Of a stretch of DNA of 64,000 bases, positions 26,436 through 33,165 are shown piece by piece. The stretch is from Polyangium sp. 15x6 (GTDB lineage: Bacteria > Myxococcota_A > Polyangia > Polyangiales > Polyangiaceae), in the NCBI RefSeq assembly GCF_029960785.1, contig NZ_JASBQE010000019.1, positions 1 to 64,000 of the forward strand, written 5' to 3'. A model generated the notes under the pieces. That model was not told where the DNA came from, searched no databases, and saw only the letters and a program-made list of their open reading frames with translations. Every line of letters starts with the position of its first letter. The first letter of the stretch is position 1. Made by a program: the position numbers and the translations under genes.

Positions 26436-27095
26436 ATGGCAGCGAGCTACTTCGACGTGGACGGCACGCTGATCCGCACGAACCTCGTCCACCCCACGCT
26501 CTATTACGTCCTGAACCAGAACACGCCGCTGCACAGCCTCGCGAAGCTCGGCGGGGCGCTGGTGAAGGCCCCGTGGCTGGCGTGGGCGGAGACGCGGGAC
26601 CGACGCATCTTCAACGAGCTGCTCTTCACGTCCTACGGCGGGATGAGCGAGGACCGGCTCGTGGGGCTCGCGGTCGAGACGTTCGAGCGCGTGATCAAGC
26701 CCAACATCTACCCCGGCGCGCGGGACCTCGTGCAGACGAGCCTCGACAAGGGGCACGACGTGGTGCTCGTCTCGGGCGCGCTCGACTTCCTGATGCGCCT
26801 GCTCGCCGAGCACCTCGGCGCGACGGACGTCATTGCGAACCGCCTCGAGATCAAGGACCGCTTCGCCACGGGCAAGCTCCTGCGCCCCGTGGTCGCGGGC
26901 CCCGAGAAGTCGCGGCTCATTCGCGAGCACGCCAAAGGCCGCGGTCACGACCTCGACGAGTGCTTCGCTTACTCCGACAGCTACTCCGATGTCCCCATGC
27001 TGAGCATCGTCGGCCACCCGGCCGCGGTGAACCCGGACAGGAAGCTGTCCCTGCTCGCGAACGCCTACCACTGGCCCATCATCCACGTCGACTGA
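26436..27095 (+). CDS. HAD-IB family hydrolase (SerB-like)
   Basis: A 219-residue cytosolic phosphatase-fold protein. Motif I is FDVDGTL with nucleophile Asp7 and general acid Asp9, motif II lies in VLVSGALDF, and motif IV is SDSYSDVPML. The HAD-IB subfamily includes phosphoserine phosphatase and lipid phosphatases, and substrate cannot be told. Its neighbours are the LarA-like gene 34 bp downstream on the same strand, probably one transcript, and a 200-bp upstream gap without recognisable features. Confidence 0.85.
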   Translation: MAASYFDVDGTLIRTNLVHPTLYYVLNQNTPLHSLAKLGGALVKAPWLAWAETRDRRIFNELLFTSYGGMSEDRLVGLAVETFERVIKPNIYPGARDLVQTSLDKGHDVVLVSGALDFLMRLLAEHLGATDVIANRLEIKDRFATGKLLRPVVAGPEKSRLIREHAKGRGHDLDECFAYSDSYSDVPMLSIVGHPAAVNPDRKLSLLANAYHWPIIHVD

Positions 27096-27129
27096 AGCGG
27101 GCGGGATTGCCGCCGAATACGAGAATGCC

Positions 27130-28755
27130 ATGAGCCATCCCTGTGTCGTGACGATCGACAGCCGCAGCGCACCCCGCGTCCTCTTCTCGGGCGACCGGCT
27201 CGTCGAGGTCGACCTGCCGACGGGCAGCCGCGTCATCTACCCGAAGCCGCCGCTCAAGCCCTTGAAGGACGTGGACGCGGCCATCCGGTACGCGATCAAC
27301 CACCCGTACAACTCCGAGCCGCTCTACGCGAAGCTCCGGCCGGGGATGAAGGTGACGATCGCGATGGACGACATCTCGCTGCCCTTGCCGCCGATGAAGC
27401 GGCCGGACATCCGCGAGCGCGTGCTCACGATCGTGCTCGACCTGCTCGCCGATTACGGCGTCGACGACATCGAGATCATCATCGCGACGAGCGTGCACCG
27501 CCGCATGAAGGACTGGGAGATCCGGCACGTCGTCGGTGACAAGATCTTCAACGCGTTCTGGCCGAAGAAGCTCTACAACCACGACGCCGAGAACCTCGCC
27601 AACATGAAATACCTCGGCACGACCGAGGAGGGCGAGGATGTCGAGCTCAACCGGCGCGCGGTGGAGAGCGATCTCATCATCTACGTGAACCTGAACCTCG
27701 TGCCCATGGACGGCGGCCACAAATCGGTCGCCGTGGGCCTGTGCGGCTATCGCAGCCTGCGCGCGCACCACAACCCGCGCGTGATGCGGCAATGTTATTC
27801 GTACATGGACCCGAAATCGTCGGCGCTCAACACGAGCGTCGTGCGCATGGGCCGGCTCGCGAACAAGAAGCTCAACGTCTTCACGATCGAGACGACGATC
27901 AACAACCGGATGTTCGATACGCCGCTCGAGTTCCTCGCGAAAAACGAGGACGATCTCTCGCGGACCGAACGAAACGCGCTCCAGGCGCTCCGGTTCACCC
28001 TCGACAAGATGCCGCAGCCCGCGCGCCAGGCGATCTTCCAGCGCGTGCCCTCGCCGTTCGGCGTGACGGGCGTGTTCGCGGGCGAGACCGAGGCCGTGCA
28101 CGAGCACACGCTCCGGCGAAGCTTCGAGCAATACTGTGTCCCGGTCGTGGGGCAGAGCGACATTCTCATCACGGGCATTCCGTTCATCAGCCCGTACAAC
28201 GTGAATTCGTTCCTGAACCCGCTGCTCGTGCAGGTGATGGCGAACGGGTATCTCTTCAACCTGTATCGCAACGCGCCCATGGTGAAGAAGGGCGGCACGA
28301 TGATCATCATGCATCCGTGCACGGACCTCTTCGACAACGAGCACCACGCGCCGTACATCGAGTTCGTGCACCGCGTGCTGCCCGAGACGCGCGACGCGAT
28401 GGAGCTGCACAAGATCTGGGAGCCGAAGTTCGCGAAGAACCCGGCCTACATCGAGATGTATCGATACGGCCACGCCTATCACCCGACGCACCCGTTCTTC
28501 ATGTGGTACTGGGGCGAGGCGGGGCGGCAGCACCTCGGCCGGGTGATCGTCGTCGGCGCGGACAACGAATACATCCCGCAGCTGCTCGGCTGGGAGACGG
28601 CGCGGACGATGGACGAAGCGCTGCGGATGGCGAAGCAGACCGCGCCGCCGAACCCGGACATCATGGCCCTGCATTGCCCGCCGATCTTCATGGCGGACAT
28701 GTCCGTGGAGAAGCAGCGCGCGCCGATTGCGGCATTGCCCGAAGGGCAAGGCTGA
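27130..28755 (+). CDS. LarA-like (nickel-dependent lactate racemase family, DUF2088) protein
   Basis: A 541-residue protein whose middle carries the LarA N-terminal domain hallmarks: AMDDISLPLPPM, IEIIIATSVHRRM (His corresponding to the LarA catalytic His) and GGHKSVAVGLCGY (Lys of the nickel-pincer cofactor attachment region), then LRAHHNP. LarA needs the LarB/C/E-made pincer cofactor to racemise or epimerise 2-hydroxyacids. None of these helper genes is in the window. The protein is about 120 residues longer than typical LarA (near 425), mainly at the N-terminus and in the C-terminal domain. Substrate unknown. Overlaps nothing, 34 bp after the HAD gene. Confidence 0.8.
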   Translation: MSHPCVVTIDSRSAPRVLFSGDRLVEVDLPTGSRVIYPKPPLKPLKDVDAAIRYAINHPYNSEPLYAKLRPGMKVTIAMDDISLPLPPMKRPDIRERVLTIVLDLLADYGVDDIEIIIATSVHRRMKDWEIRHVVGDKIFNAFWPKKLYNHDAENLANMKYLGTTEEGEDVELNRRAVESDLIIYVNLNLVPMDGGHKSVAVGLCGYRSLRAHHNPRVMRQCYSYMDPKSSALNTSVVRMGRLANKKLNVFTIETTINNRMFDTPLEFLAKNEDDLSRTERNALQALRFTLDKMPQPARQAIFQRVPSPFGVTGVFAGETEAVHEHTLRRSFEQYCVPVVGQSDILITGIPFISPYNVNSFLNPLLVQVMANGYLFNLYRNAPMVKKGGTMIIMHPCTDLFDNEHHAPYIEFVHRVLPETRDAMELHKIWEPKFAKNPAYIEMYRYGHAYHPTHPFFMWYWGEAGRQHLGRVIVVGADNEYIPQLLGWETARTMDEALRMAKQTAPPNPDIMALHCPPIFMADMSVEKQRAPIAALPEGQG

Positions 28756-31319: not shown

Positions 31320-31414
31320 GCGCTTCGGCTTACCACGCCGCCGCGGCGGAATGAAGCAGCGCGCCGCGCGCATTCTTGCTTGTCGCCTCGCGCCGTTCTG
31401 CCCACAATGGCGCC

Positions 31415-32677
31415 GTGCCTCCCGCCCTCGCCACGCGCCCGATCGAGCCTCCCGAGGACCTCACGATTCCCGCGGCGGGCTCGGAGACCGCGAAAGGCGT
31501 TCTCTCGCGCGCGCTCGGTCGCCTCGTGCCCGAGCTCCTCGGCGTGGGGCAGGGTCTCGCGCTCTCGGCCGAGGCGCGCGCCGATCTCGCCGTCTTTCAG
31601 GCACTCGTGCGCGAGGTCGCGCGGAAGAACCCCGGCTCGCTCCCGAGCGTCCTCCGCCGCACGGCGATGGGGACGCTCGTCCGGTGCCTGCGCGCGCCGC
31701 GGCCCGATTCCGAGGCGCTGCTGCGCGAGCTCATCGGGGTTTTCCTCTTGCACCTCGCGCGCGCCTCCGCGCTCCCGCGGGCCATTCGACAGAAAGCGCC
31801 TCCGAAGCAGCTCGTTTCCACCACGGCGTGCATTTCGATCGGTTTGCCCGAGGATACGCGCGCCGTCGTGTTCGAGAACGAGGGAAAGATCGGCATCGAG
31901 CGCGCGGACGGCGTCAAGGCGCTGAGCCTTCAGGCGCTGGAAGCGCAGCCGCCGGGGTATTCCGAGACGCGCGCGGGCGTGACCGTATCGCGGCCGTTCT
32001 TCCCGATCGACGGGGGTACGGTGCTCGCGCTCGTGGACACGAATCCGCTCGCCATGGTCGAGGCGCACCCCGACAAGGAGGGCAATGCGATCGACCTCGG
32101 CGGCAAGAGCGTGACGGAATGGACGCGCCCGCTCTCCGAGGCGCTCGGCCTCGTGCGGGAACACCTGCCGGATCTGCGGGGCGAGATCGAGCTTTTCGTG
32201 CAGCAGATCGTACCCGTCGGATACCACGACGAGAAACACCTCTCCGCGTCGTACCAGGAGGCGATCGGGACGATCTACATGTCCCTGCATCCGAGCCTCA
32301 TGACGATGGCGGAGGCGGTGATTCACGAGTTTTCGCACAACAAGATCAACGCGCTCTTCGAGATCGATCCCGTGCTCGAAAATGCGTTCTCTCCGCTCTA
32401 CACGTCGCCTGTGCGGCCCGATCCGCGGCCGCTCCACGGCGTCCTGCTCGCGGTCCACGCGTTCTTGCCCGTCGCGCGGCTCTACGAGCGCATGATCGAG
32501 GCGGGCCATCCGCTCGCGAAGGCGCCGGGATTCTCGGAGCGATTCGCGCGCATCCGGCAGATCAACGCGGAGGGCGCTGAGGTGATCCTCGAAAACGGAA
32601 AGCCGACCCGCGTGGGGAAGGCGGTGCTCGACGAGATCCAGCGCTGGCACGCTCACTACGAGAAAATGGACGCCTGA
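31415..32677 (+). CDS. HEXXH-motif putative peptide-modification protein (aKG-HExxH-type)
   Basis: A 420-residue protein of the HEXXH family linked to RiPP peptide modification (TIGR04267; recently grouped as iron/alpha-ketoglutarate-dependent peptide beta-hydroxylases). The HEXXH motif is HEFSH (His304-His308), preceded by AEAVI and followed by NKINALFEIDP. Downstream PVRPDPRPLHGVLLAVHAFLPVARLYERM is the conserved tail of the family, including the extra His and Asp that complete the site in relatives. Many relatives sit with radical SAM enzymes and precursor peptides, and none is visible here. The start is GTG 31415, or alternatively TTG 31376. The next gene starts 8 bp after its stop, so the two are probably one transcript. 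Confidence 0.75.
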   Translation: MPPALATRPIEPPEDLTIPAAGSETAKGVLSRALGRLVPELLGVGQGLALSAEARADLAVFQALVREVARKNPGSLPSVLRRTAMGTLVRCLRAPRPDSEALLRELIGVFLLHLARASALPRAIRQKAPPKQLVSTTACISIGLPEDTRAVVFENEGKIGIERADGVKALSLQALEAQPPGYSETRAGVTVSRPFFPIDGGTVLALVDTNPLAMVEAHPDKEGNAIDLGGKSVTEWTRPLSEALGLVREHLPDLRGEIELFVQQIVPVGYHDEKHLSASYQEAIGTIYMSLHPSLMTMAEAVIHEFSHNKINALFEIDPVLENAFSPLYTSPVRPDPRPLHGVLLAVHAFLPVARLYERMIEAGHPLAKAPGFSERFARIRQINAEGAEVILENGKPTRVGKAVLDEIQRWHAHYEKMDA

Positions 32678-32685
32678 GGGGCCGC

Positions 32686-33165
32686 GTGCGTCCCGACGAA
32701 CGCGTCCTCCGCGATACGTTCCGGGAGCAACTCGCGCGCCTGCGTTCCTTGCGGGTCGATCTGCGCACGCTCGGGCCGCGGGCCACCGAGGAGCACGCGG
32801 CGCGCCTCGCCGAGGCGTTCGTCGAGCCAGACCGTAGCTTTGCCTTTCGGCAGGCGCTCGAAGGGAAGGGCGAAGCGGTCGACTTCGAAACATGGCTCCG
32901 CCAGGACCGGCTTTCGCCGCGGGAGATGCACGGCTGCCTCGAATGGCTCGCGGCTGGCGCCGAACGGGTCGTCTGCGTGCGATTCGACCGCCGCGCCGGG
33001 TTTCCAGCCGTGGCGCTCGTGGTGCGCACGCTCCACGAGTCCTGGGTGTGCTCGTGGCCCGGCGTGTACGTGCATTTCGAGGCGGGACGGGCGCTCGCCG
33101 TCACGGTGCATTACGAGCTATTCCAGTGTGATCTGCGGGTCGGGATGGGATCGCCTTATCGGTAG
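32686..33165 (+). CDS. unknown protein coupled to HEXXH gene
   Basis: A 159-residue protein from GTG 32686, 8 bp after the HEXXH stop, strongly suggesting a shared transcript. It is globular (TLGPRATEEHAARLAEAF, REMHGCLEWLAAG, FDRRAGFPAVALVVRTLHESWV) and has no signal or membrane segment. I do not recognise the family. Its pairing with the HEXXH protein makes it a possible substrate-binding or precursor-related partner, but no cleavable leader or core is visible. The following gene is 63 bp downstream. Confidence 0.55.
   Translation: MRPDERVLRDTFREQLARLRSLRVDLRTLGPRATEEHAARLAEAFVEPDRSFAFRQALEGKGEAVDFETWLRQDRLSPREMHGCLEWLAAGAERVVCVRFDRRAGFPAVALVVRTLHESWVCSWPGVYVHFEAGRALAVTVHYELFQCDLRVGMGSPYR

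Follow-up and report, generated by a model that had tools for sequence, protein, structure and literature searches.

His-Xaa-Ser (Hxs) systems, HxsA/B/C/D, were reportedly described by Haft and Basu. Their description is cited in the accessible part of PMC9062424. In the literature searched, which mostly lay outside subscription journals, we found no characterised Hxs product and no HExxH hydroxylase named as part of an Hxs system, the accessible portions of PMC12636437, PMC13060819, PMC9062424 and PMC12614342 included. As far as the available text of PMC12636437 and PMC13060819 goes, members of the HExxH family act as hydroxylases on RiPP precursors, targeting His and Asp, Pro, and Gln in strings; several successive Gln residues are hydroxylated by PflC and PosC, and PflC leaves truncated substrates unhydroxylated. 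The ChlH/ChlB-HExxH domain is 2-oxoglutarate-dependent and beta-hydroxylates His and Asp (available part of PMC12636437). For SjiH, a further relative with solved structures (22nu and 22ob), no paper on function was found in the literature searched.

The window, that is the whole 64-kb stretch of DNA analysed here, encodes a homologue of aKG-HExxH-type peptide beta-hydroxylases, closely followed by a 159-aa protein (Table 1). The original prediction had assigned the first protein to the TIGR04267 type, and this assignment held: it scored 93.5 bits against the model (E 1.5e-26; curated cut-off 40), and no other protein of the 13.4-Mb genome matched it at E <= 0.01. Its closest named relatives, from Polyangium species, share 91 to 93% identity. 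The HEFSH motif and the PVRPDPRPL tail were found as that prediction had read them, residue numbers being counted from the start at 31415, and an alternative upstream TTG start is possible at 31376. Both the HExxH and the RxDxRP motifs were invariant in 63 aligned sequences, and the R-x-D-x-RP pattern is present too in 22nu and 8s5f. By analogy with the family HEFSH would bind the metal, and PVRPDPRPL may have a role in 2-oxoglutarate or metal binding. Two of the six genomes of the window's group, which are called Polyangium throughout, encode a further and more distantly related TIGR04267 protein (about 79 bits); these two proteins (G003:C123:270723-271220 and G005:C1:349607-350104) had been missed at E 1e-5 with the window protein as query.

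Table 1. Coordinates of the HExxH gene, its motifs and its downstream neighbour in the window, and of three genes at the Hxs locus L148 on another contig of the same genome.
Feature	Position	Strand	Remarks
aKG-HExxH-type peptide beta-hydroxylase homologue, 420 aa	31415..32677	+	GTG start; TIGR04267 match, modelled fold
HEFSH putative metal-binding motif, residues 304-308	32324..32338	+	H304, E305 and H308 invariant in 63 aligned sequences
PVRPDPRPL motif, residues 332-340	32408..32434	+	R334, P335, D336, R338 and P339 invariant in 63 aligned sequences
159-aa protein, family not placed	32686..33165	+	8 bp after the HExxH stop; Polyangium-level neighbour
181-aa protein	L148 5786-6331		no family found; Tat-like start (by eye)
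284-aa radical SAM protein (PF04055)	L148 6336-7190		HxsC/HxsC4-like
681-aa protein	L148 7197-9242		PF11617 (MopE putative metal-binding motif) matched 7 times

An AlphaFold2 model of the HExxH protein built with 63 sequences had a mean pLDDT of 93.7. Among solved folds its best match was SjiH (22ob; Z 31.0, 383 residues aligned), the second was the HExxH domain of ChlH (8s5f; Z 27.5, rmsd 3.1, 306 residues), and matches after these had Z 6.4 and lower; Foldseek also recovered the ChlH HExxH domain from the model, at E about 2e-9. The predicted catalytic class, an aKG-HExxH hydroxylase, is well supported by family membership and modelled fold. With ChlH the window protein shares the fold, HExxH and RxDxRP, but ChlH is fused to a cyclophane-forming radical SAM enzyme, whereas the window protein stands alone at a locus without one. 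SjiH is the closest solved relative and matches over nearly the full length, although at 15% identity. PflC/PosC and PesO are, like the window protein, stand-alone HEXXH enzymes; they modify RiPP precursors, in the case of PflC/PosC at several residues in a row. According to the accessible parts of PMC12636437 and PMC13060819 their genes share a cluster with those of their precursors and of an MNIO, whereas the window hydroxylase lies away from a radical SAM Hxs system.

That Hxs system was found elsewhere in the genome. No HxsB, HxsD or HxsD-like gene was detected by tblastn in the 64-kb window, which held no His-X-Ser repeat tract either, and no HxsA4 match was found on the window's contig. 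The earlier statement that radical SAM partners and a precursor peptide are absent thus stands for the window but fails for the genome, where the Hxs system, including an HxsA4 precursor, is on another contig, C211 (locus L148, G000:C211); the hydroxylase gene is therefore not inside the Hxs gene cluster in this organism. The genes on C211 run in the order 181-aa protein, HxsC-like radical SAM protein, MopE-motif protein, HxsD, HxsD-like, HxsB and HxsA4 precursor. HxsD (60.5 bits; cut-off 50), HxsD-like (76.3; cut-off 41), HxsB (547.6; cut-off 370) and the 98-aa HxsA4 precursor (111.8; cut-off 55) all scored above curated cut-offs, identifying a His-Xaa-Ser system of the HxsA4 type. In contrast to the known systems, the linked 284-aa radical SAM protein, the one gene scored against both models, fell below the cut-offs of HxsC (88.2 vs 267.9) and HxsC4 (108.9 vs 500). 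The occurrence of a MopE-motif protein within an HxsA4 cluster hints at metal binding. BLAST relatives of the 681-aa MopE-motif protein recur in other HxsA4 clusters, and the 181-aa protein heads many such clusters and is also found near several linked HExxH genes.

The window's genome also has another Hxs locus, a classical-type one, at 8109-11546 of L149 (G000:C19:4001-24000). It encodes a 156-aa HxsA-like protein, HxsD (64.2 bits), HxsB and a radical-SAM-cluster protein, the HxsA-like protein carrying HRS/HSS repeats and scoring 50.5 bits, under the HxsA cut-off of 121.65. L149 had no TIGR04267 match.

Across 377 Myxococcota genomes the hydroxylase and the Hxs system co-occurred: HxsD-like was present in 95 of the 99 hydroxylase-positive genomes vs 27 of the 278 hydroxylase-negative ones (95/4/27/251, given here and below as both/hydroxylase only/other gene only/neither; one-sided Fisher p 1.8e-58, uncorrected for kinship). 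HxsD-like was called here at E <= 1e-7, with 117 of the 122 positives exceeding the curated cut-off, and for the hydroxylase the best 4 first-look candidates per genome were scored. Counted by genus the table became 56/3/19/156, and the four hydroxylase-only genomes have reported completeness of 92, 86, 58 and 73%. Among 59 close relatives, 28 of which carry the HExxH protein, the counts were 27/1/3/28 for HxsD-like, 27/1/6/25 for HxsB and 26/2/4/27 for HxsA4 over its curated cut-off, the last rising to 28/0/4/27 with G039 and G054, whose shorter HGS precursors score below that cut-off. The sole hydroxylase genome without HxsD-like in this set (G044) has an HGS precursor. For HxsA4, a threshold of E <= 0.001 matched 44 of the 59 genomes, many of them by weak low-complexity hits; the curated cut-off was used, giving 30 genomes, one of which (G055) counts only with its neighbours in the frame, and for an HxsA4 count at E < 1e-9 the threshold was chosen after seeing the data. 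The HxsD-like association was also seen within the window's family (37 genomes; 17/0/3/17), in genomes of >= 6 Mb (23/1/3/15) and in smaller ones (4/0/0/13), and when each genus among the 59 relatives was represented by a single genome (22/1/3/26). LarAH, a control gene from the same neighbourhood, showed no significant association in the 59 genomes (17/11/14/17, p 0.30) or within the window's family (15/2/12/8, p 0.07). The protein had been called an orphan, which it is by position but not by genome, where it tracks the Hxs system; the suggestion that its substrate might be a peptide encoded elsewhere gains support from the co-presence with Hxs and HxsA4 in both genome sets. Such co-occurrence, like a place for the hydroxylase gene inside the cluster, is not known as a defining trait of Hxs systems.

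The surroundings of HExxH relatives were surveyed at 90 loci, including 80 named loci and with several places counted twice, on gene calls from a purpose-made simple caller and not a standard one. A radical SAM cluster lay within five genes of the HExxH gene at 37 of the 90 loci (adjacent at 27), and clusters whose representatives were identified as TIGR03976 (HxsD), NF038315 (HxsD-like) and TIGR03978 (HxsB) did so at 22, 18 and 16 loci, respectively. Two of 81 loci were dropped from the linkage count as too short; of the remaining 79 hydroxylases (window and named genomes), 24 had HxsB, HxsD or HxsD-like in their locus, 28 had none of these three despite at least 6 kb on each side, and 27 were cut by contig ends. 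On a tree of these 79 proteins, made by a quick method that left 22 forks open and the root unsettled, 7 changes between linked and unlinked were needed. At locus L059 (G038) genes for a radical SAM protein, the hydroxylase, an HxsD homologue and another radical SAM protein all lie on one strand, the hydroxylase gene overlapping both its radical SAM and its HxsD-homologue neighbour by 4 bp; the homologue scored 35.6 bits, under the cut-off of 50. The hydroxylase and HxsD-like genes lie within 20 kb of each other in at least 27 of 99 genomes, a lower bound owing to contig breaks, and a single contig of G005 carries both, separated by 371 kb.

Other genes were also seen beside members of the family. 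Positions 26436-28755 of the window encode a HAD-IB hydrolase and a LarAH14/15/16-type NPN-dependent hydroxyacid isomerase (NF052592), and this combination was found near the HExxH gene at 9 of the 90 loci (Polyangium, Minicystis, Byssovorax and G036). A protein cluster near HExxH genes of one family branch, whose tested member (L095) contains eCIS_core (PF13699), occurred within five genes at 9 loci (L095, L099, L105, L106, L109, L113, L124, L126 and L146; adjacent at 6). Another protein cluster, SIR2-type (PF02146) in its tested member (L081), was present near the HExxH gene at L077, L081 and L104, adjacent in two of them.

The precursor on C211, encoded at G000:C211:68586-68882, ends in AQHCS(HGS)14W and does not differ among the six Polyangium genomes. 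Runs of 7 to 53 His-X-Ser units occur in the other HxsA4-like precursors examined; almost every unit is HGS, and the usual end is HGSW or HGQW; the longest runs were 53 consecutive units in L072 (around 4819) and 49 in L212 (G167) and L219 (G098). An HGS tract was found in 13 of 20 hydroxylase-positive HxsD-like loci sampled from 95 (one masked after its start), with no His-X-Ser tract in the stretch examined at the other 7, and in 8 of 20 HxsD-like-positive, hydroxylase-negative loci sampled from 27. Three genomes (G019, G020 and G027) combine HxsD-like with an (HGS)n precursor and no hydroxylase. Because such genomes exist, the predicted hydroxylation step is optional and not needed for every HGS peptide. 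No difference in the HGS core was found between genomes with and without hydroxylase: the precursors from these three genomes start HCSHAS, but HAS also occurs in the hydroxylase-positive loci L133 and L142. As far as sequence comparison goes, the HGS core gives no clue to the residue that would be modified.

We consider it very likely that the window protein belongs to the Hxs system, and probable, with somewhat less assurance, that it is a stand-alone hydroxylase encoded apart from, yet serving, an HxsA4-type Hxs system in trans. Since the hydroxylase is found almost only in genomes that encode the machinery of the HGS peptide, it probably modifies this peptide from a distance. In the scheme that we propose, whose activity, cofactor, substrate, modified residue and order of steps we infer, a predicted Fe(II)/2-oxoglutarate-dependent HExxH peptide hydroxylase would reach the HxsA4 precursor in trans from its separate genomic location and would most likely beta-hydroxylate several of its HGS repeats, at His or else at another residue, either before or after radical SAM modification. 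We lean towards the HGS core as the target; that His is the residue hydroxylated is a more tentative proposal, which we hold slightly more doubtful than probable. An extended version, which we think rather unlikely, is a dispersed RiPP pathway in which the HExxH oxygenase would hydroxylate many successive His residues of (HGS)n, with about 7 to 50 repeats, together with HxsB, the HxsC-like radical SAM protein and the MopE-motif protein, to give a poly-hydroxyhistidine metal-binding, perhaps copper-binding, polymer. Metal binding by such a polymer is suggested by its His density and the MopE motifs, and no product type of this kind, a poly-hydroxyhistidine metal-binding RiPP, was found in the literature searched.

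A different role was suggested by the original prediction, in which the HExxH and 159-aa proteins would form a new two-component modification system; in the form weighed here, its substrate would be local or a larger protein. The two genes share a strand and are separated by the 8 bp first reported, and on sequence evidence the 159-aa ORF is a real gene under purifying selection, because its mean dN/dS is 0.25 (10 pairs from 5 Polyangium genomes) and differences fall mainly at the third codon position (106, 68 and 264 at positions 1, 2 and 3). Five of the 6 Polyangium genomes retain the pair, and each of the 7 genomes in which a 159-aa homologue was confidently identified carries the HExxH gene as well, five of them of one genus; the search had listed 10 of the 59 genomes at E <= 0.01, from which G022, G024 and G051 (E 0.005 to 0.009) were left out. 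However, in G001, the sixth Polyangium genome, the HExxH gene is present but other sequence stands in place of the 159-aa neighbour, the two homologues outside the genus (G008 and G036; 38-39% identity) are unlinked to their HExxH genes, and phylum-wide the 159-aa protein occurs in 4 of 377 genomes vs 99 of 377 for the HExxH protein. The two genes are neighbours at 5 of the 90 loci, all Polyangium. Lack of conservation of the second gene beside the first had been named beforehand as the outcome that would speak against a two-component system, and this is what the neighbourhood comparison gave. The 159-aa protein proved as hard to place as the prediction had said, with no match at E <= 1 in NCBIfam or Pfam, a weak match only (E 0.4) in PHROG, one chance-level chain (E 1) among PDB sequences, no match in plasmid records, and a structure prediction from 4 sequences at pLDDT 35. 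It looks like a local neighbour only, and we regard the two-component reading as very unlikely. Less likely again is that the HExxH protein works with the LarAH-type hydroxyacid isomerase and HAD-IB hydrolase on a small molecule: their genes lie within five genes of it at the nine loci mentioned above, and in a Byssovorax MAG (L044) the HExxH gene starts 6 bp past the LarAH gene, but the genome-wide association with LarAH was not significant and the linkage is limited to the four groups named.

The least credible of the readings considered is that the protein is a zinc metalloprotease of the HExxH type and not an oxygenase. It would account for the HExxH motif and for weak zincin fold matches (Z about 5), and PflC is described in the accessible part of PMC12636437 as hydrolysing a truncated substrate; the ChlH and SjiH matches, at Z 27 to 31, nevertheless far exceed the zincins, and RxDxRP is invariant. 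More plausible than any of these, but still unlikely, is an Hxs-system enzyme whose target is HxsD, the MopE-motif protein, the terminal Trp or the leader, and not the HGS core. The likeness of the HGS core with and without hydroxylase and the presence of other conserved proteins in the cluster favour such a target, against which stands the modification of RiPP precursors by characterised family members, as described in the available parts of PMC12636437 and PMC13060819.

The enzyme family and the Hxs system were already known. Within the literature searched, what appears to be new is that an often-unlinked HExxH hydroxylase is tied to an HxsA4-type system in a dispersed, trans-acting arrangement. 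With a hydroxylase that would serve the HxsA4-type system in trans, an orphan enzyme gains a named candidate substrate, and the Hxs genes concerned have curated families. Because the hydroxylase is nearly always present together with the Hxs system yet is often not beside it, our results suggest that tailoring enzymes can be overlooked when RiPP mining is locus-based, and can be recovered through their co-occurrence across genomes.
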